Shown here: positions 28,939 through 47,474 of the stretch, one piece after another
How the letters are laid out: every line of letters begins with the position of its first letter
How positions within the stretch are numbered: position 1 is the stretch's first letter
Position numbers and translations under genes: made by a program
Assembly (NCBI GenBank): GCA_024636585.1
Contig: JAGXGS010000038.1
Span: 1 to 52,588 of the forward strand
Origin: Thiogranum sp.
Lineage (GTDB): Bacteria; Pseudomonadota; Gammaproteobacteria; DSM-19610
Direction of reading: 5' to 3'
Length of the DNA stretch: 52,588 bases
The notes under the pieces: generated by a model
Told to the model about the DNA's origin: nothing
The model's database searches: none
Seen by the model: the letters and a program-made list of their open reading frames with translations, nothing else

Positions 28939-29574
28939 ATGAATCAGAAAAAACGCATTGAAATATTCGAGCGTCTGCGCAGGGAAAATCCGCACCCGAC
29001 CACCGAACTTAAATACGACAATCCTTACCAGCTACTGGTAGCGGTAACCCTGTCTGCACAGTCCACCGATGTGGGTGTGAACAAGGCGACTGCTGCATTG
29101 TTCAAAACCGTCACGACACCGCAGGCGATGCTGGCGCTGGGCGAAGCGGGTCTCAAGCAACACATCAAGACCATCGGCCTGTTCAACACCAAGGCCAGGA
29201 ATGTCATCGCAGCCTCTCGCCTGCTGGTGCAACAGCACGCCGGGGAGGTCCCGGCGCAACGCGAAGCTTTGGAAGCGCTTCCCGGCGTCGGACGAAAAAC
29301 TGCCAATGTAATTCTGAATACCGCTTTCGGTCAGCCCACCATCGCCGTGGATACACACATTTTCCGGGTTGCCAACCGCACCGGCATCGCGCCCGGCAGG
29401 AACGTCAGGGAAGTGGAATTGAAGCTGTTGAAAGTGGTGCCAAAGAAATTTCTCCACGATGCTCACCACTGGCTGATCCTGCACGGGCGCTACACCTGCA
29501 TTGCGCGGACCCCGCGCTGCGGCAGCTGCATCATCGAAGACCTGTGCGAATACCGTCACAAGACCGACACCTGA
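28939..29574 (+). CDS. nth: Endonuclease III
   Basis: DNA glycosylase and AP lyase for oxidised pyrimidines. The 211-aa protein has LPGVGRKTANVIL with the catalytic lysine, and VDTHIFRVANR with the catalytic Asp. The [4Fe-4S] ligands are C-x6-C-x2-C-x5-C (CIARTPRC, then C, then C at the C-terminus). Co-location with rnf is conserved. Confidence 0.96.
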   Translation: MNQKKRIEIFERLRRENPHPTTELKYDNPYQLLVAVTLSAQSTDVGVNKATAALFKTVTTPQAMLALGEAGLKQHIKTIGLFNTKARNVIAASRLLVQQHAGEVPAQREALEALPGVGRKTANVILNTAFGQPTIAVDTHIFRVANRTGIAPGRNVREVELKLLKVVPKKFLHDAHHWLILHGRYTCIARTPRCGSCIIEDLCEYRHKTDT

Positions 29575-29642: not shown

Positions 29643-30092
29643 ATGCTGTTTGGACAGGACCGCAACAAGCTGCGCCAGTTTTACTGCGACACCTGGGCCG
29701 CCCGCCGTCAGGGCCTGCCGCTGGAGCCGCTGCAACTGCAGATCGCCGAGGTGATCGAGCAGCACCCGGAATATCAGCCGCTGGTGGAAAACCCTGATCA
29801 GGCGCTCGCCAGGGACTATCTGCCGGAACTGGGCGAATCCAACCCGTTCCTGCACATGGGCATGCACCTGGCCATACGCGAACAGGTCGCCACCAATCGT
29901 CCGGCCGGTATGCGTGAGTCCTATCAGCGCCTGTTGATGGCGACCGGCGACAGTCACCAGCTGGAGCACCAATGTATGGATTGCCTGGCCGAGATGATCT
30001 GGAATGCACAAAAACAGGGCGCCGAGCCGGACGAAAATGCCTATATCACCTGTATAAGATCGTTACTCGATACTGAGCCGCATACCCGCTAA
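29643..30092 (+). CDS. DUF1841 family protein
   Basis: 149-aa cytoplasmic protein beginning MLFGQDRNKLRQFY, with LPELGESNPFLHMGMHLAIREQ and HQCMDCLAEMIWNAQK. These match DUF1841, a small gammaproteobacterial and betaproteobacterial family with no assigned function. It ends 40 bp before a hairpin and 98 bp before the copper-peptide gene. Confidence 0.85.
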   Translation: MLFGQDRNKLRQFYCDTWAARRQGLPLEPLQLQIAEVIEQHPEYQPLVENPDQALARDYLPELGESNPFLHMGMHLAIREQVATNRPAGMRESYQRLLMATGDSHQLEHQCMDCLAEMIWNAQKQGAEPDENAYITCIRSLLDTEPHTR

Positions 30093-30132
30093 TACAGTTG
30101 GGCGGCCGGGGCACTGCAACTTTTCTCCATCC

Positions 30133-30150
30133 CTCAGGTCTACGCCTGAG
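30133..30150 (+). terminator. Hairpin with weak T tract in the leader of the EGKCG-peptide gene
   Basis: CTCAGG (30133-30138) and CCTGAG (30145-30150) form a 6-bp stem with loop TCTACG, followed by AGTTTGTTTAG. It could end the DUF1841 transcript or act as an attenuator of the peptide operon. It lies inside a wider pair, GTTGGG (30097-30102) and CCCAAC (30163-30168). Confidence 0.45.
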
Positions 30151-30189
30151 AGTTTGTTTAGTCCCAACGCCTTAAGGAGGCTTGATTAC

Positions 30190-30531
30190 ATGTCCAGAAA
30201 AAATGTATTAAAACCTGTGGCAGCTGCAATCGGCGCAGCATTTGTAACGTCTTTGGCCGGAACTTCGGTCGCTAATGCAACCGAAAATCCGTTCGCCATG
30301 ACCGAGCTGAGCAGCGGCTATACCGTTGCGGATGCACATATGGCGGAAGGCAAATGCGGTGAAGGCAAGTGTGGCGAAGCCGCTGCTGCAACGGATGCGG
30401 ACCACAAGGAAACGGCTGAAGGCAAGTGCGGCGAAGCCATGAAGGACGGCGAGGCCATGAAGGACGGCGAGGCCAAGGAAATGACTGAGGGAAAATGCGG
30501 TGAGGGCAAGTGCGGTGGGGCGGCTAACTAG
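30190..30531 (+). CDS. EGKCG-repeat copper-peptide precursor (HvfA/bufferin type)
   Basis: 113-aa secreted precursor. It has a signal peptide with predicted cleavage after SVANA (residue 30), then a low-complexity tail. The tail has five EGKCG motifs, with cysteines at 56, 61, 80, 103 and 108: a pair, a single and a pair. The central spacer contains a tandem MKDGEA, encoded by an 18-bp direct repeat (30439-30456, 30457-30474). AAGGAGG lies 9 nt before ATG 30190, an unusually strong ribosome site. Known family facts: MNIO enzymes convert cysteines in EGKCG motifs into copper-binding groups (HvfA of Haemophilus; related bufferins). The next genes supply that enzyme and its partner. The copper role here is inference, strengthened by copA-copZ downstream. 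Confidence 0.88.
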   Translation: MSRKNVLKPVAAAIGAAFVTSLAGTSVANATENPFAMTELSSGYTVADAHMAEGKCGEGKCGEAAAATDADHKETAEGKCGEAMKDGEAMKDGEAKEMTEGKCGEGKCGGAAN

Positions 30532-30586
30532 CCGACCTCCTGTCCAGCGGTAAATTCCGGCAACTGTGACAAAGGAAATTCGGCGC

Positions 30587-31444
30587 ATGAAAAATCCGTC
30601 TTACCCTGTGCACGGTGCCGGTCTCGGACTGCGGCGGACCCTGTTGGGCCCGCTCGCGGACCGTCCGCCCGAGCAGGTTGATTTCTATGAAGTCGCGCCG
30701 GAGAACTGGATCGGCGTAGGTGGCCGCTATGGCAAGCAGTTTCGCGCGTTTACAGAACGCTATCCGTTCGTCTGCCACGGTCTGTCGCTGTCCATCGGCA
30801 GTCCCGCTCCACTGGATGAAACATTTCTACAGCGCCTCAAACGCTTTCTCGACCAGCACCGGATCCGCGCCTATACCGAACACCTGAGTTACTGCAGCGA
30901 TCATGGTCATCTGTATGACCTGCTGCCAATTCCGTTCACCGAAGAGGCCGTGCATTATGTCGCGGCACGCATCCGACGCACCCAGGAAATACTCGAGCGA
31001 CGTATCGCCATGGAGAACGTGTCTTATTATGCAGCACCCGGCCAGGAGATGCCGGAAATCGATTTCATCAACGCCGTACTCGAGCAAGCCGATTGCGATC
31101 TGCTGCTCGATGTCAACAACATCTATGTTAACAGCATCAATCATCGGTACGACGCGGAACAGTTTCTGAAGGCTTTGCCCGCCGAGCGGCTGAGCTATTT
31201 CCACATTGCCGGTCATTACCGGGAAGCCGAGGATCTGGTCGTCGATACACACGGCGCCGCAGTCGTGGAAACCGTGTGGGATCTGCTGGACAAGGCCTAC
31301 GCACATTTTGGTGTGGTGCCGACGTTACTGGAACGCGACTTCAACATTCCGCCAGTACCGGAACTGCTGACGGAAGTCGATCGCATTGTCGAGGCGCAGC
31401 ACCGACAGGCGCAAACCGATCTCCGGAGACAGACGCGTGGCTAG
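30587..31444 (+). CDS. MNIO (DUF692) multinuclear iron oxidase, HvfB/BufB type
   Basis: TIM-barrel non-haem iron enzyme that modifies cysteines of a RiPP precursor using oxygen. The 285-aa protein shows the metal-ligand pattern of the family: H64 (CHGLSLS), E98-H99 (TEHLSYC), E143-N144 (AMENVSY), D175 with N177/N178 (DVNNIYVN), H206 and H210 (YFHIAGH), D220 and H222 (VDTHG), E249 and D251 (LERDFN). ATG 30587 is preferred (AAAGGA upstream) over GTG 30566. It overlaps the DUF2063 gene by 8 bp. The substrate is presumed to be the peptide encoded just upstream. Confidence 0.92.
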
Positions 31445-32198
31445 GCCGGTATTCACACAGCGGCAATACGAGTTCGCCGCGCATATTCGCGACCCGGCCG
31501 TCAATCCTGCGCCCACCGACGTTGAAGACCGGCGCATGAAAATCTATCGGGAATTGTTTTACAACAATGTCGAAAGCTTCATCGCCAATGGCTTTCCGGT
31601 GCTGCGGGCACTGACCGGCGATACTGAGTGGCACGCGATGGTTCGCGATTTCTTCTCCCGCCATTCCTGCCATTCCCCACTGTTCCTGGATATCTCTCGG
31701 GAGTTTCTCGGCTATCTCGAAGAGGAACGCGGCGAGCGCGCGGATGATCCGCCGTTTCTGCGTGAACTGGCCCATTACGAGTGGGTGGAACTGGCGCTGG
31801 CGACTGCTGAAACCGATCCCGCTGCAATCGCAGCCGATCCGCAGGGCGACCTGTTGCAGGGTCGTCCGGTGTTGTCTCCGCTGGCATGGATGTGCAGCTA
31901 CCGGTTTCCGGTACACCGCATCGGACCGCAGTTTCAGCCACACGATGCGGGCGAACAGCCAAGCCACCTGCTGGTGTATCGCAACAGCGAAGATGACGTC
32001 ATTTTTATCGAACTGAATCCGGTCAGCGCACGGCTGTTTTCGCTGCTGGAGAATGATCCACAGTGCACTGGCCTGCAGGCACTGGAACAGATCTGCGGCG
32101 AGCTTGCGCATCCCGCACCGGAAACTGTCATCGCCGGCGGCCTACAGATCCTCGAACAATGGCGGCAACGCGGCATTGTTCAGGGCGTTCAACAATAA
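31437..32198 (+). CDS. DUF2063 partner protein, HvfC/BufC type
   Basis: 253-aa cytoplasmic partner of the MNIO enzyme. The N-terminal DUF2063 domain ([40 protein letters not shown]) recognises precursor peptides in studied systems. The C-terminal half ([26 protein letters not shown]) resembles a winged or RRE-like fold. GTG 31437 lies within the MNIO stop region, giving tight coupling. Name and role come from family knowledge. Confidence 0.9.
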
Positions 32199-32216
32199 AT
32201 CACAAAGAAGGCTGGC

Positions 32217-32795
32217 ATGTACCCATTCGTGCAACTGCAGAAACTGCTGGACCGCACCCGAGCACTGGATTTTCTCGCGCCGCTGGCATTGCGCCTGTAC
32301 CTGGTGCCGATATTCTGGATGGCCGGCAATCAAAAACTGGCGGGCATGGACAGTACCATCGCCTGGTTCGATCAGGGGCTGGGACTCCCCTATCCTGAAT
32401 TTATGGCCTGGGCAGCCGCGCTGACCGAGATCGGCGGTGCAATTTTGCTGCTGATCGGTCTGGCAGTGCGCTGGGTCTCGATCCCGTTGATGATCACCAT
32501 GGCGGTGGCTGCAGTTACCGTGCATCTGCAGCACGGCTGGCTGGCGATAGCCGGCGGCGGTTTGTTCGCCACCGAACGTACCGAGGGTGCGCTGATGCGA
32601 CTGGACCGCGCCAGGGACATTCTGCGCGAACACGGCAACTATGAATGGCTGACTGAGTACGGCAATTTCGTGGTGCTGAATAATGGCATCGAATTCGCCG
32701 CGACTTATTTCATCATGCTGCTGACACTGTTTTTCATCGGCGCGGGTCGTTTTGTCAGCATGGACTACTGGCTTCGCTGCGCGTTCCTGCGCTGA
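32217..32795 (+). CDS. DoxX-family membrane protein, HvfD type
   Basis: 192 aa with about four membrane segments (ALRLYLVPIFWMAGNQKL; AAALTEIGGAILLLIGLAV; WVSIPLMITMAVAAVTV; FIMLLTLFFIGAGRFVS). Features and size fit DoxX. Such proteins accompany MNIO/DUF2063 pairs in hvf and bufferin operons. The exact role is unknown; involvement in redox or export of the peptide is inference. It starts 18 bp after the DUF2063 gene. Confidence 0.87.
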   Translation: MYPFVQLQKLLDRTRALDFLAPLALRLYLVPIFWMAGNQKLAGMDSTIAWFDQGLGLPYPEFMAWAAALTEIGGAILLLIGLAVRWVSIPLMITMAVAAVTVHLQHGWLAIAGGGLFATERTEGALMRLDRARDILREHGNYEWLTEYGNFVVLNNGIEFAATYFIMLLTLFFIGAGRFVSMDYWLRCAFLR

Positions 32796-32802
32796 GTCAG
32801 CG

Positions 32803-32818
32803 GCGCGGGGGCCCGCGC
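32803..32818 (+). terminator. GC-rich palindrome after the DoxX gene
   Basis: GCGCGG and CCGCGC form a 6-bp stem with a 4-nt loop between the DoxX stop and copA, followed by GTGTTATGCTTTT. The T run is weak and offset, so termination is uncertain. It may lower read-through into copA without stopping it. Confidence 0.3.
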
Positions 32819-32878
32819 GTGTTATGCTTTTAACGCAAGTCTCACTGACTGCCGCGAGGCGGCGAGGGCTGAAAAAGC

Positions 32879-35632
32879 ATGGCTTCTCAAGATACACTCT
32901 CCACAACCCCGACATCCTCGAATCATCTTGAAGTAACCATCGAGGGCATGACCTGCGGGCACTGTGTGGCGCGCGTTGAATCAGCGCTGCGAACAGTTCC
33001 GGGAGTGGATGCCGTCGAGATCGATCTCGACAGCGGCCACGCGCAGGTGCAGGGCGGCAGTGCGGAGGCCGTGATTACCGCCATCGAAGCTGCCGGCTAC
33101 CACGCCAGCGTGGCAGAGGCAGCGGGTCAGTCCTGCGACATTCCACCGGCCCCGCCATCCACCCCACCCGCCGTAGCGGCTGGCGAAGGCTACCGCATCG
33201 ACATCGGGAATATGACCTGCGCCAGTTGCGTGGCGCGGGTGGAGAATGCTATCCGTGCGGTTCCGGGGGTGCAGGAGGCGTCGGTCAACCTGGTGGAAGG
33301 CGCCGCCTATGTAGTGGGTGGCGATGCGGCACAGGTAGCCGATGCGGTCAGTGATCAAGGCTACCCTGCCCGCCCCGCTCCGCGCGCGCCAGCCACTGCC
33401 ATCGACCTGCGCTTCGATCAGCCTCTGGATGAAGCCCGGCGTCAGCAGGCCGGGGCCATTCTCGCCAGCGTTCATGCTGACCTCGCCATTAACTGGGACG
33501 ATCCCCAACAGGCCCGCTTCCTGCCGAAGCAGCATCCGGCGGACTATCTGCTGGCGCTGCGCGAGGCCGGCTTTACCGCGCACATCCTGGAAGCCACCGA
33601 AGATCCTTACCACCAACAAACACAGCAGGCGCGTACCTTGCTGCACCGCGCGGCCCGGCGCGCGGCGCTGGCCGGCGTCGCGGGTTTCGCGCTGATGTTC
33701 GCGACCATGGGTGGAATGCTGCCGTCCATCGAAGCCGCTTCACCGCTGACCGACCTGCAGGGGCGCGGACTCTGGCTGCTCATCACGATGCTGGCCCTGG
33801 GGGTCATGACCTACAGCGGCTACAGCTATTACACCGGCGCCTGGAAGCAGGCCCGCCATGGCCAGGCGAACATGGATACTCTGGTGGCGGTGGGAACCGG
33901 GGCCGCCTGGCTGGCGTCGTTATTGTTGGTCCTCGCCCCTGATTTCGTACCGCTGGAGCAGCGCCACCTGTACCTCGAAGCCTCAATGGTGATCCTGGCA
34001 TTCCTGCAGGTCGGGCATGTGCTGGAAATCCTCGCCAAGGCCCGCACCGGTCGCGCTATCGGTGCACTGGTCGAACTGGCTCCCCGTAATGCCGTACTGC
34101 TGCGTGGACAGGAGCAGCTGGAACTGCCGGTGACATTGCTGCAGCCCGGCGACGAGTTTCTGGTGCGTCCCGGGACCGCCGTGGCAACCGACGGCGTTGT
34201 CAGCAGCGGAAGCTCCAGCGTCAATGAGGCCATGCTCACGGGCGAGGCGCTGCCGGTAGCAAAACAACCCGGCGACAGCGTGACCGGCGGAACCATGAAC
34301 GCCTCCGGAACCCTGACGATTCGCGTCACCCGGGTCGGCGAAAACACGACGCTGGCACATATCATCCAGGCTGTGAAACGGGCACAGATGAGCAAGCCGC
34401 CGATCGGCAGGCTGGTCGACCAGGTCGCTGCGGTGTTCGTGCCGGTGGTGATGGTCATTGCGGTGCTGACATTTTTTGGCTGGCTGCAGCTTGGCCCTTC
34501 ACCGTCGCTGCCGTTCGCACTGACTGCCTCCATTGCGGTGCTGGTGATCGCCTGTCCCTGCGCCCTGGGGCTCGCCACACCCATCGCCATCATGGTCGGG
34601 ATGGGCCGTGCCGCGCAACTGGGCGTGTTGATCCGCAACGGCGATGCCCTGCAGGCGGCCGCCGGCATCAGCCATCTGGTGGTGGACAAAACCGGCACCC
34701 TCACCGAAGGTCGACCACGCGTAACCCACCTGCACTGCCTCGCCGGGATTGACGAAACCCAGGCGCTGCAATGGGCCGCGAGCCTGGAATACGCATCCGA
34801 ACACCCGCTGGCGCAGGCGCTCGTGCAAAGCGCGGAACAACGCCAGCTGGAGTTGCTACCGGTGCAGGATTTCCTGGCGGAAGCCGGCCACGGCGTTACC
34901 GCTACCCTCGACGGACGGAGTTTGTTGATCGGCCGGCTGGAATGGCTGCAGGCGCAGGACATCGCCATCGACCCGGGCCTGCTGGCACAGGAGCGCGTCA
35001 TTGCCAGCGCTGCCGCAACGCCGGTATGGCTGGCGGACCAGCACAATGCGCTGGCGGTGCTGGGACTGAGCGATCCATTACGCGAGGACAGCCTCGCCGC
35101 GGTTGCGGAATTGCAGGCGCGCGGGATCGAAGTGGTGATGTGCACCGGCGATCATGCCGAGACCGCTCTGGCAATCGCTCGCGAACTTCACATTCACGTA
35201 GTGCACAGCCGCGTGCTGCCGGCACAGAAGGCCGACATCGTAATGCAGTTACAACAGCAGGGTCACAACGTCGGGATGGTCGGCGATGGCATCAATGATG
35301 CGCCTGCACTCGCGCAGGCTGATATCGGTTTCGCCATTGGCAGCGGCACCGACGTCGCGATCGAAACGGCGGACGTGACGCTGGCCAGCAACTCCCTTTC
35401 GAGTGCCGCCACAGCAGTGGCTCTGTCGAAGGCGACTCTGCGCAACATCCGCGAAAACCTGTTCGGCGCCTTTATCTATAATACGCTGGGCATCCCGCTG
35501 GCTGCCGGGCTGCTGTATCCTGTTACTGGCTGGCTGCTGAATCCCATGTATGCCAGCGCTGCGATGGCACTGTCTTCGGTTACCGTGGTCAGCAATGCCA
35601 ACCGCCTGCGCCTGTTCAAACCTGTGGAGTAA
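32879..35632 (+). CDS. copA: CopA-type copper-exporting P1B ATPase
   Basis: Inner-membrane ATPase that expels Cu(I) from the cytoplasm. The 917-aa protein begins with two heavy-metal domains: GMTCGHC at 23-29 and NMTCASC at 111-117. A third, HMA-like segment (~172-240) has no CxxC. The core has the membrane CPC motif (559-561), the TGE loop (454-456), the phosphorylated Asp in DKTGT (603-607) and GDGINDAPAL. It is longer than many CopAs because of the extra N-terminal segment. CopZ follows 4 bp later. No CueR-type dyad was seen in the 83-bp gap before it. Confidence 0.96.
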   Translation: MASQDTLSTTPTSSNHLEVTIEGMTCGHCVARVESALRTVPGVDAVEIDLDSGHAQVQGGSAEAVITAIEAAGYHASVAEAAGQSCDIPPAPPSTPPAVAAGEGYRIDIGNMTCASCVARVENAIRAVPGVQEASVNLVEGAAYVVGGDAAQVADAVSDQGYPARPAPRAPATAIDLRFDQPLDEARRQQAGAILASVHADLAINWDDPQQARFLPKQHPADYLLALREAGFTAHILEATEDPYHQQTQQARTLLHRAARRAALAGVAGFALMFATMGGMLPSIEAASPLTDLQGRGLWLLITMLALGVMTYSGYSYYTGAWKQARHGQANMDTLVAVGTGAAWLASLLLVLAPDFVPLEQRHLYLEASMVILAFLQVGHVLEILAKARTGRAIGALVELAPRNAVLLRGQEQLELPVTLLQPGDEFLVRPGTAVATDGVVSSGSSSVNEAMLTGEALPVAKQPGDSVTGGTMNASGTLTIRVTRVGENTTLAHIIQAVKRAQMSKPPIGRLVDQVAAVFVPVVMVIAVLTFFGWLQLGPSPSLPFALTASIAVLVIACPCALGLATPIAIMVGMGRAAQLGVLIRNGDALQAAAGISHLVVDKTGTLTEGRPRVTHLHCLAGIDETQALQWAASLEYASEHPLAQALVQSAEQRQLELLPVQDFLAEAGHGVTATLDGRSLLIGRLEWLQAQDIAIDPGLLAQERVIASAAATPVWLADQHNALAVLGLSDPLREDSLAAVAELQARGIEVVMCTGDHAETALAIARELHIHVVHSRVLPAQKADIVMQLQQQGHNVGMVGDGINDAPALAQADIGFAIGSGTDVAIETADVTLASNSLSSAATAVALSKATLRNIRENLFGAFIYNTLGIPLAAGLLYPVTGWLLNPMYASAAMALSSVTVVSNANRLRLFKPVE

Positions 35633-35636
35633 AGAC

Positions 35637-35846
35637 ATGAATGACAGCACTACTCTGATTGTCGATGGAATGACCTGTGATCATTGTGTGACTGCGGTCC
35701 GTGAGGCGCTTGCCGAAGTGCCGGGCGTCTATGAAGTTGTGGACGTGCAACTGCAATCGGGACGCGCCATTGTCAGAGGCAGTGCGGCGCCGGAAACACT
35801 GATCGAAGCGATCGTCAGGGCCGGTTACCAGGCGCGCGAGGCCTGA
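35637..35846 (+). CDS. CopZ-like copper chaperone
   Basis: 69-aa soluble heavy-metal domain with GMTCDHC (CxxC) at residues 11-17, which binds Cu(I) and hands it to CopA. The LIEAIVRAGYQA end completes the ferredoxin-like fold. ATG 35637 is 4 bp after the copA stop, so it is surely co-translated. A longer in-frame read from 35550 lies inside copA and is rejected. Confidence 0.93.
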   Translation: MNDSTTLIVDGMTCDHCVTAVREALAEVPGVYEVVDVQLQSGRAIVRGSAAPETLIEAIVRAGYQAREA

Positions 35847-35875
35847 TCAAATACAAGATACCACGAGGAGACGCT

Positions 35876-36889
35876 ATGCAATTGGGCATGATTGGTTTGG
35901 GACGCATGGGTGCCAACATGGTACGGCGCCTGATGAAGGCGGGACACGAGTGCGTGGTGTATAACCGCAGCCCCGGCCCGGTACAGGAACTGGCCAGTGA
36001 AGGCGCGATCGGCGCCAGTGATCTGGATGGCTTCATCGCCAGGCTCGACCGACCGCGCGCGGTGTGGCTGATGGTGCCGGCCGGAGTCGTCGATCAGCAG
36101 ATCGCCGAACTGGTGAAGCGGCTGGAGCCGGGCGACATCATCATCGATGGCGGCAACTCCTACTACAAGGATGACATCACGCGCGCCCATGCGCTTGAAG
36201 CGAAGGGCATCATCTATCTCGACGTCGGCACCAGTGGCGGCGTCTGGGGTCTGGAACGCGGTTACTGCCTGATGATCGGTGGTGACACCGGGGCGGTCAC
36301 GCATCTGGAACCGGTATTCGCGGCACTGGCACCGGGCCTCGGCGCGATCGAGCGCACTCCCGGTCGCAGTGGCGAAGCAGCGGCTGCAGAACAGGGCTAC
36401 TTGCATTGCGGTCCGCCCGGCGCCGGGCACCTGGTGAAAATGGTGCACAACGGTATCGAGTACGGCCTGATGGCCGCCTACGCGGAAGGCTTCAATATTC
36501 TCAAGCACGCCGGGATCGGTCGGAAGGATGCCGAGATCGATGCCGAGACCTCACCCGTCCGTAACCCGGAAGAATACCAGTACGACATCAATGTGGCAGA
36601 CGTCGCAGAAGTCTGGCGGCGCGGCAGCGTGGTCAGTTCCTGGCTGCTGGATCTGACCGCGGTAGCTCTGCAGGAAGATCCGGGCCTTGCCCGATTCAGC
36701 GGACGGGTGTCGGATTCCGGCGAAGGCCGCTGGACCAGCATCGCCGCTATCGAAACCGGTGCGCCGGCTCCGGTGCTCACTACCGCCCTCTACAGCCGTT
36801 TCATGTCACGCGGCGAAGCCGAATTCGGCGACAAGCTGCAGTCCGCCATGCGCTACCAGTTCGGCGGACATCACGAAAAGAAAAGCTGA
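35876..36889 (+). CDS. 6-phosphogluconate dehydrogenase, short form
   Basis: Oxidatively decarboxylates 6-phosphogluconate to ribulose-5-phosphate. The 337-aa protein is the short, likely NAD-preferring type (YqeC/GntZ-like), not the ~470-aa form. It has the Rossmann loop GLGRMGANM (8-16), IIDGGNSYYKDD, DVGTSGGVWG with the substrate serine, and the GHLVKMVHNGIEYG catalytic block. It starts 29 bp after copZ. A MITE-like repeat begins right after its stop. Confidence 0.9.
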   Translation: MQLGMIGLGRMGANMVRRLMKAGHECVVYNRSPGPVQELASEGAIGASDLDGFIARLDRPRAVWLMVPAGVVDQQIAELVKRLEPGDIIIDGGNSYYKDDITRAHALEAKGIIYLDVGTSGGVWGLERGYCLMIGGDTGAVTHLEPVFAALAPGLGAIERTPGRSGEAAAAEQGYLHCGPPGAGHLVKMVHNGIEYGLMAAYAEGFNILKHAGIGRKDAEIDAETSPVRNPEEYQYDINVADVAEVWRRGSVVSSWLLDLTAVALQEDPGLARFSGRVSDSGEGRWTSIAAIETGAPAPVLTTALYSRFMSRGEAEFGDKLQSAMRYQFGGHHEKKS

Positions 36890-46020: not shown

Positions 46021-46053
46021 ACGAGTCGCAGCACCTTGTGTGACAGCGTCCTC

Positions 46054-46689
46054 ATGGAGAACGGACTATTGAAGCGATTCGATGCAGAAGTGCCTGCCCG
46101 CGGACAGGTGAGTTCGCACAAGCCGCTGAATCACTTCCTCGCGGAGGCACAGCACAAGGCTTATCATGTTGCCTACGGTGCTTTGTGGGATCGGGAAACC
46201 GCACTCGACGTGGTGCAGGAAAGCATGTTGCGACTGGTTGAGTACTATCACGGAAAACCTGCAGAAGACTGGCCGGCCTTGTTCCGCAGCGTACTCAACA
46301 GTCGCATCAACGATGAGCGGCGCAAACGCATGCTGGCGCAAACCAAACGCAAACTGCTGTCGTTGACGATGCTGGGGCTGACGAATGCCGGCCCGGATGA
46401 ACAGGCAGTCGAGGCTGATTTGCCGGACAAGCGGCACGACGGTGGTTACAGTGACCCCGAAGCGAGCGTCGCCGGCAGCGAGCTGAAGCAACATATCGAA
46501 GGGGCACTCGGCACCCTGTCCGATCGCCAGCGGCAGGTGTTCCTGCTACGCGAACAGCTCGGGCTCAGCATTCGTGAAACCGCCGAAACGCTGGGCTGTT
46601 CCGAGAACAGCATCAAACAACACCATTTTCGTGCTCTGCAGGCGATGCGGGGCTTACTTTCGGAGGTATGGGACCATGAACACGTCTAA
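46054..46689 (+). CDS. ECF-type sigma factor
   Basis: 211-aa extracytoplasmic-function sigma factor. Region 2 includes ALDVVQESMLRLVEYY, the usual DVVQE block. Region 4 is GTLSDRQRQVFLLREQ then LSIRETAETLGCSENSIKQHHFRAL, a clear helix-turn-helix. ATG 46054 is chosen; GTG 46036 is possible. It overlaps the anti-sigma gene by 14 bp. Target promoters are not visible. Confidence 0.9.
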   Translation: MENGLLKRFDAEVPARGQVSSHKPLNHFLAEAQHKAYHVAYGALWDRETALDVVQESMLRLVEYYHGKPAEDWPALFRSVLNSRINDERRKRMLAQTKRKLLSLTMLGLTNAGPDEQAVEADLPDKRHDGGYSDPEASVAGSELKQHIEGALGTLSDRQRQVFLLREQLGLSIRETAETLGCSENSIKQHHFRALQAMRGLLSEVWDHEHV

Positions 46690-47116
46690 CGCCCACCCGG
46701 ATGTGGAATTACTGGACCGGCTGCGCGCAGGTTTGCTGGACGATGAATCGCGCCGGCGGGAACTCGAGCAACACCTGAGAGACTGCCCGGTCTGTCGGCA
46801 GCGCTATGACTGGCAGGGCCTGATGAAGGCGGCAGATCTCGCAGCTCCGGCTCTTGAACAACGACTTGATCATGCCCGCGAACAGGCACTGCGGGCGCCA
46901 CGCCGATCGCGGCTGTCGCGCCGACTGGTTCCGCTTGCCGCGGCGGCTTCGATCGCACTGCTGGCGGTGGTACTGGTGAATCCCTTGCAACAGGCGCCTG
47001 ATCCCGACACCCAACTGGCCAGGGACAGCCGGGCAGCACCGGAGCTATATGAAGAACTGGACTTCTATCTGTGGCTGGCAGACCATAAGCGCACCAATGA
47101 AGATTCTGCGACCTGA
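46676..47116 (+). CDS. Zinc-type anti-sigma factor
   Basis: 146-aa inner-membrane protein. The cytoplasmic N-domain has H33-x3-C37-x2-C40 (HLRDCPVC), the zinc motif of ZAS anti-sigma factors. A membrane segment follows (LVPLAAAASIALLAVVL, ~83-99), then an acidic periplasmic tail. It overlaps the ECF gene by 14 bp, the usual regulator pair. Which signal it senses is unknown. Confidence 0.82.
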   Translation: MNTSNAHPDVELLDRLRAGLLDDESRRRELEQHLRDCPVCRQRYDWQGLMKAADLAAPALEQRLDHAREQALRAPRRSRLSRRLVPLAAAASIALLAVVLVNPLQQAPDPDTQLARDSRAAPELYEELDFYLWLADHKRTNEDSAT

Positions 47117-47120
47117 CACC

Positions 47121-47474
47121 ATGAGAAGCTGTTTTATTGCGCTGGCGCTTGTGAGTTCACTTCTGGTGACGCTGCCGGACACCGCGCAGGCTGACCGTGC
47201 TCGCCATGACAATCGCCTCTATCTGGCTGATCGTGGAGAGGTTCCCTGGCAGTCACTGAGTCCGCAGGAACAGGACGCGTTGCGTGAGTACCGCGGCAAC
47301 TGGGAGCAGTACGGGGGGGATCGCCAGGAGCGAATTCGCAAGGGTGCGCAACGTTATCTCGAACTGCCCCCGGATGAACGTCGCAAGGTTGAGCAGAAGC
47401 GACGCGAGTATCAACAGCTTTCTCCGCAGGAACGTGAGCGGCTGCGCGAGGAATACCAGCGGCGCCGTAACTAG
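47121..47474 (+). CDS. DUF3106 exported protein
   Basis: 117-aa exported protein with a signal peptide ending AQA. The body is PWQSLSPQEQDALREY and LSPQERERLREEY, repeated Pro/Gln/Glu/Arg helical units as in DUF3106. It sits 4 bp after the anti-sigma gene, completing a common ECF, anti-sigma, DUF3106 trio. The role is unknown; a periplasmic stress or metal role is inferred. Confidence 0.82.
   Translation: MRSCFIALALVSSLLVTLPDTAQADRARHDNRLYLADRGEVPWQSLSPQEQDALREYRGNWEQYGGDRQERIRKGAQRYLELPPDERRKVEQKRREYQQLSPQERERLREEYQRRRN

Follow-up and report, generated by a model that had tools for sequence, protein, structure and literature searches.

A peptide cluster of the EGKCG type adjoining the copper exporter genes copA-copZ in one gammaproteobacterial family, a probable copper-detoxification locus

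Introduction

When the genes for a copper-binding peptide lie directly in front of the genes for a copper exporter, do the two share a task, or are they simply neighbours? This question is raised by six genes at positions 30190-35846 of the window, the whole stretch of 52,588 nucleotides from Thiogranum sp. (Gammaproteobacteria) that was analysed. All lie on the + strand, in the order hvfA, hvfB, hvfC, hvfX, copA and copZ. A first-pass annotation, made from the sequence alone, had read them as an hvf/bufferin-type RiPP cluster linked to a complete copper-export module. Our analysis indicates that they probably form a copper-detoxification locus with two adjoining halves, a peptide trap and an export pump.

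Gene content and layout

The genes of the locus and their immediate context are as follows.

28939..29574, + strand: nth, named by eye (upstream context)
29643..30092, + strand: DUF1841 protein (upstream context)
30190..30531, + strand: hvfA, precursor of 113 amino acids with an N-terminal signal-like segment, a conserved NPF.MTELSSGY and five EGKCG motifs
30587..31444, + strand: hvfB, MNIO (DUF692) maturase (NCBIfam 450.5, cut-off 360; Pfam PF05114 357.7, cut-off 25; PDB 3bww, E 4.8e-75)
31437..32198, + strand: hvfC, DUF2063/RRE partner protein (PME1) (NCBIfam 329.5, cut-off 142; Pfam DUF2063 and NGO1945_C)
32217..32795, + strand: hvfX, DoxX-family membrane protein (NCBIfam 216.2, cut-off 80; Pfam DoxX)
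32879..35632, + strand: copA, Cu(I) P1B-type ATPase (TIGR01511 579.6, cut-off 397; two N-terminal HMA domains)
35637..35846, + strand: copZ, HMA copper chaperone (NCBIfam CopZ_AFE_1862 87.2, cut-off 85; Pfam HMA)
35876..36889, + strand: gnd-type 6-phosphogluconate dehydrogenase (downstream context), which lies directly 3' of hvfX, without copA-copZ, at locus L117 of a relative

The reading frames bear out the order, the overlap and the common direction described in the first-pass annotation. Between hvfA and hvfB lie 55 bases, hvfB and hvfC overlap by 8 (the GTG start of hvfC being inside the end of hvfB), and the remaining gaps measure 18 bases (hvfC-hvfX), 83 bases (hvfX-copA) and 4 bases (copA-copZ). 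Upstream, nth and DUF1841 are the neighbours of hvf in many relatives too. The precursor is as had been proposed, with five codon-level EGKCG motifs at 30346-30515 and none in 100 shuffles; its signal peptide, judged by eye, looks Sec-type. The assignments as MNIO enzyme, DUF2063 partner and DoxX protein likewise hold, all three exceeding their NCBIfam cut-offs. HvfB aligns with PDB 3bww over query positions 9-213 and 203-274, and the motifs within this alignment (HGLS, HLS, EN, NN, HIAGH, VDTHG and LERD) presumably include the MNIO metal ligands.

CopA and CopZ follow as claimed, each passing at least one curated cut-off. CPC and MxxSS motifs mark Cu(I) pumps, and the CopA translation shows ACPCAL and MALSS; it scores below the E. 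coli-type CopA equivalog model (792.1, cut-off 1316). The label of a complete copper-export module is fair as far as these two proteins go, yet a copper regulator was not found alongside them.

Class of the peptide cluster

The peptide half is of a known kind and belongs to the oxazolin / Buf_EGKCG / captophorin branch. HvfA exceeds the cut-off of the KCGExKCG_twice domain model (36.1 bits against 19.5) and falls under that of the strict HvfA equivalog (38.8 against 95), which places it in the wider HvfA family, outside the strict equivalog. The clusters of this branch (hvf of Haemophilus, fon of Fontimonas, ngo of Neisseria and mmr of Microbulbifer) have an EGKCG precursor, an MNIO and a DUF2063 partner in common with the window cluster, which additionally shares the DoxX protein with hvf of Haemophilus and differs from them all by the copA-copZ genes directly downstream. 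The bufferin label, in contrast, had to be given up. Bufferins (Buf1/Buf2) have MNIO, DUF2063 and DoxX proteins in common with the locus, along with the copper buffering proposed here, but a bufferin in the strict sense was rejected because the maturase scores below the BufB cut-off (272.8 of 310) and the precursor gave no Pfam match to DUF2282 (Buf1).

Passages of PMC12452194 describe about 2,000 Buf_EGKCG precursors, mostly from Pseudomonadota, with most such clusters containing RiPP, MNIO, DUF2063 and DoxX genes in varied combinations. In passages of PMC13097082, the modification in the fon, hvf and ngo products is given as 5-thiooxazole, the fon product was found to be lighter by 4 Da per Cys, and copper binding was demonstrated for the fon and ngo products. 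The same passages present EGKCG-type pathways as commonly responding to gold, to oxidative stress or to an excess of copper with induction, and call for further studies of any physiological role of EGKCG peptides.

Distribution of the hvf-copA-copZ linkage

The family search covered 20 genomes, identical to the set from the order search, and CopA was searched in these. HvfB exceeds its cut-off in 18, and 10 of the 20 have copA-copZ directly after hvfX in the same orientation (G000, which is the window genome, G003, G005, G009, G010, G014, G015, G016, G017 and G018). Because the order and strand recur in half of the family genomes, the direct linkage noted in the first-pass annotation is not a one-off. 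The other genomes with HvfB over the cut-off comprise six that are unlinked (G001, G002, G004, G006, G007 and G011) and two cut by contig ends (G012 and G019, in or just after hvfX). At the hvfA end, two of the 10 linked loci reach or cross a contig edge: G018 is without hvfA on its contig, and that of G017 has 103 bases before hvfA. G001 has a divergent HvfB copy over the cut-off (63% identity) and another, next to DUF1841, that a contig end truncates. Second HvfB-type copies also occur elsewhere in G015 (L129) and in G016 (L024; C118, with a stop inside the frame).

In G004, a single contig scored 100% complete, gnd lies about 50 bases after hvfX, and gnd follows copZ in G000 and G010. With gnd next to hvfX in this complete genome, copA-copZ was either added or lost at the hvfX-gnd junction. 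Among the best 80 of 356 relatives' loci, not all of them with much sequence downstream, five have CopA after hvf, and these are the contigs of G005, G009, G010, G017 and G018; a weak match at L108 (30% over 200 amino acids, on the other strand) was not counted.

HvfC was found in 118 of 369 sampled genomes of the class. Outside the family, 117 HvfC loci from 114 genomes were inspected, with at least 4 kb of downstream sequence in 99, and none had copA-copZ within the fetched stretch. A P-type ATPase match of any sort occurs at three of these loci. The one at L207 was rejected as copA because it is CcoI-like by its N-terminus, and those at L223 and L282 because, by eye, they are without CPC (IPEGLP instead) and resemble other cation pumps; the L282 gene lies 3' of hvfC on the same strand, yet is no CopA. 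A neighbourhood search for hvf loci next to copA, which had been put forward with the first annotation, is thus positive within the family but negative at the 117 HvfC loci inspected elsewhere in the class, where the two halves lie apart. This rules out a general hvf-copA linkage in Gammaproteobacteria; within the genomes examined, the two halves adjoin in this family alone. Resolution in the HvfBC tree is low and the linked label needs four changes (3-5), so one gain followed by losses and several gains are indistinguishable.

The pairing was not found in the main texts of the publications searched, although it may be noted in their supplements or in other publications. In the main texts of PMC12452194, PMC13097082 and PMC12538549, the terms CopA and ATPase have no match, and CopZ has none in those of PMC12452194 and PMC13097082. 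What appears new is that, in a single family, a copper exporter is joined to a peptide cluster of a familiar type. As a separate observation on gene context, many Gammaproteobacteria carry their hvf genes downstream of rnf-nth; 42 of the 117 class loci are flanked by an nth match, and one is also near hvf in many of the best 80 relatives' loci.

The linked CopA and copper regulators

In a CopA tree of 29 rows, nine of the 10 linked CopA proteins and that of G008 form one clade (100/98). Together with the G003 protein and four unlinked CopA of other families, this clade makes up a group (100/99) that is separate from a second CopA type (100/100), which nine family genomes have at other places. 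In the tree, the CopA of G003 groups with those unlinked proteins from other families (97/90), so the linkage in that genome may be a separate one. Identity between the window CopA and the other linked CopA is 56-67% (9 compared). In G008, whose genome is a single contig and gave no HvfB match, the linked-clade CopA is split over two distant places (L131 and L162), reflecting either a real rearrangement or an assembly fault; the second piece was left out of the tree.

In the window genome (83% complete), the linked CopA is the sole one of four matches with more than 40% identity and alone shows ACPCAL plus MALSS. Other possible copper genes in this genome are a heavy-metal RND pump, its metal unassigned, and a PcoA-type oxidase. 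Its best match to CueR reaches 28.9 bits (cut-off 147.4), although at this level of completeness absence is not proof; there are three MerR-family matches in all, the third not matched by the CueR model. A scan for CueR operators before copA gave at best 7-9 of 14 positions in the 10 linked regions, against 8-10 of 14 in eight comparison regions before other copA genes, which serve as a poor positive control. A MerR-type gene lies within about 0.4 to 5 kb of the second CopA type, on the same contig, in seven of nine cases (G003, G004, G006, G007, G010, G011 and G019, not G005 and G016), these genes scoring 56-70 bits against the CueR model, under the cut-off of 147. CueR-like genes do occur on other contigs in some linked genomes, and the one in G010 exceeds the cut-off (169.8 bits).

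Known cue/cop export loci (CueR-CopA-CopZ), such as copZA of H. influenzae, likewise keep CopA and CopZ together, but they differ from the window, where no CueR adjoins and no clear CueR box was found. Passages of PMC10187127 describe H. influenzae copZA as controlled by a divergent CueR, and the term hvf does not occur in that article.

The promoter before hvfA

One promoter-like feature precedes the peptide cluster.

30118..30140, + strand: ECF-sigma-type promoter core (AACTTT-N14-GTC), the sole match on both window strands

Alignment of the stretch before hvfA from 14 family genomes shows a common GGAAACTTT-N13-GGTCGTA, which we take to resemble RpoE-type (ECF sigma) promoters. A reduced core is present in 14 of the 16 family upstream regions with enough sequence, a pattern picked after 14 of those 16 regions had been seen. 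G002 and G001 are without it within 400 bases and show, by eye, GGAACTTT-N15-GTCA, which falls outside the pattern; the second hvf copy of G015 is also without the core, and the contig of G017, which is not among the 16, starts within it, its outermost bases being GGTCGTA. In the 20 whole family genomes, a stricter pattern tolerating one mismatch gave 11 sites, 10 of them before hvfA, against six sites for its reversed control; the copy in the window deviates from this consensus and is outside the 11. With a slightly different pattern, seven of 63 loci matched (0.11 expected), five from this lineage and two from outside, although the lineage loci L035 and L040 were missed by the pattern and the L062 stretch was wrongly cut out. 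The core is therefore a feature of the lineage and not of hvf clusters at large. It also occurs before hvfA in unlinked relatives, and it is absent before copA in all 10 linked genomes.

Two plasmid-borne MNIO-DUF2063-DoxX clusters adjoin an ECF sigma and zf-HC2 gene. Plasmid precursors were inspected on these two best-matching plasmids, which come from genera other than Escherichia, and their Cys repeats are of a related but different make (KEGSCG and AKCG). Among the ECF-type genes of the window genome, RpoE is nearest to the two plasmid sigma factors (34% and 28% identity). Passages of PMC8224329 describe SigF as controlling related clusters in Caulobacter. Given the promoter core, the plasmid clusters beside an ECF sigma and RpoE as the nearest match, hvf is probably under ECF control here.

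The junction between hvfX and copA

The gap between the two halves contains one candidate structure.

32803..32820, + strand: GC-rich hairpin, a weak terminator-like match, between hvfX and copA (gap fold z -1.64)

Terminator-like sites number six in 7 kb against 4.7 expected, no more than chance, and RNA folding of the gap, calculated for eight of the 10 linked genomes, gave z below -2 in G003 and G005 only. The gap is not conserved in length, ranging from 10 to 188 bases across the linked genomes, with start codons uncertain. TATACT lies six bases before the presumed copA start in G009, G014, G015 and G016, a count not above shuffles, and in sigma-70 scoring before copA, G003 alone stands clearly above simple shuffles (11 of 500). 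An Rfam search returned nothing but a tRNA; a tRNA-Ser (gga) lies at the window edge (1-88).

Transcription of copA may start from a promoter of its own. Two features caution against assuming a single operon: the 83-base gap carries a GC-rich hairpin, and no hvfA-type promoter signal is seen at copA. That hvf and copA-copZ make up one copper locus is well supported; they may or may not share one transcript.

Proposed role and alternative explanations

By analogy with the Haemophilus, Neisseria and Fontimonas relatives, HvfB with HvfC would convert the five EGKCG Cys of HvfA to 5-thiooxazoles, and the modified HvfA would be secreted through Sec and bind Cu(I) in the periplasm. CopZ, as its family predicts, would hand cytoplasmic Cu(I) to CopA, and CopA would pump it into the periplasm, where the peptide may buffer the copper so delivered, both steps being held in one inheritable block. 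The analysis establishes what the genes are, their order and strand, their recurrence in the family and an ECF-type promoter signal at hvfA; modification, copper binding, hand-over between the halves and shared induction are what we infer, and cooperation between the neighbours is suggested by the conservation of their pairing. The presence of the pairing in half of the family genomes, set against its absence from every more distant relative examined, suggests a common task in copper detoxification. Speaking against a detoxification locus are the lineage-bound nature of the linkage (0 of 117 HvfC loci elsewhere), the missing core before copA (10 of 10), the unconserved hvfX-copA gap and the other possible copper genes of the genome. 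A more elaborate version strikes us as improbable: the pump and chaperone would have left CueR and joined an envelope-stress (ECF sigma) operon, making export and thiooxazole trap one relay, perhaps with CopA handing copper directly to the peptide or HvfX.

The two halves may also be neighbours and nothing else, an hvf cluster beside a separate copA-copZ transcription unit, each regulated and acting independently, and to this we give a substantial chance, if short of an even one. The complete relative with hvfX directly before gnd (locus L117) implies that the copA-copZ block was added or lost, and independence would fit the variable gap with its GC hairpin in the window, the want of an hvfA-type core before any linked copA and the TATACT just before copA in four of the 10. 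Such independence is harder to reconcile with an order and strand kept in 10 genomes of two genera, whose CopA have diverged to 56-67% identity (9 compared), while the genes beyond copZ differ in the genomes looked at; the absence of the pairing from the 117 loci elsewhere shows that it is not generic, and its persistence suggests selection.

Two further alternatives concern the purpose of the peptide. That it serves envelope oxidative stress first, with copper binding secondary, seems unlikely to us, though it deserves weight, given the ECF-type promoter core before hvfA, the plasmid clusters beside an ECF sigma and zf-HC2 gene, and the RpoE2 regulon of Haemophilus, which in passages of PMC7907618 includes an uncharacterised DoxX-containing gene set, here taken to be hvf; the copper pump adjoining the cluster in 10 genomes points instead to copper. 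Copper acquisition or cuproenzyme delivery, in which CopA supplies the periplasm and the peptide holds copper for assembly, is very improbable. CopA-type pumps can feed periplasmic enzymes, and the MNIO superfamily includes the methanobactin maker MbnB, a weak match here, but the MbnB model stays far under its cut-off (49.7 of 325) and no importer is among the eight proteins classified at 29643-36889. Moreover, passages of PMC13097082 and PMC8224329 describe both EGKCG and bufferin clusters as reacting to oxidative stress and to copper in excess.

A peptide cluster adjoining a copper exporter provides genome-context evidence for a role of EGKCG peptides in copper detoxification, and this lineage offers a natural system for asking whether exported copper is caught by the peptide.

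Other MNIO and ECF sigma genes

On plasmids, 256 records carry an MNIO less than 60% identical to the window HvfB, 71 of them named Escherichia, and the E. albertii plasmid MNIOs listed are about 42% identical to it. The stretch 46036-47474 of the window encodes a further ECF sigma factor, which scores 143.8 bits and falls short of the PRK09047 cut-off of 173, followed, by eye, by an HxxxCxxC frame like a zinc anti-sigma factor and then by a small secreted-looking frame; the sigma factors beside hvf on the plasmids have a closer match than this one.
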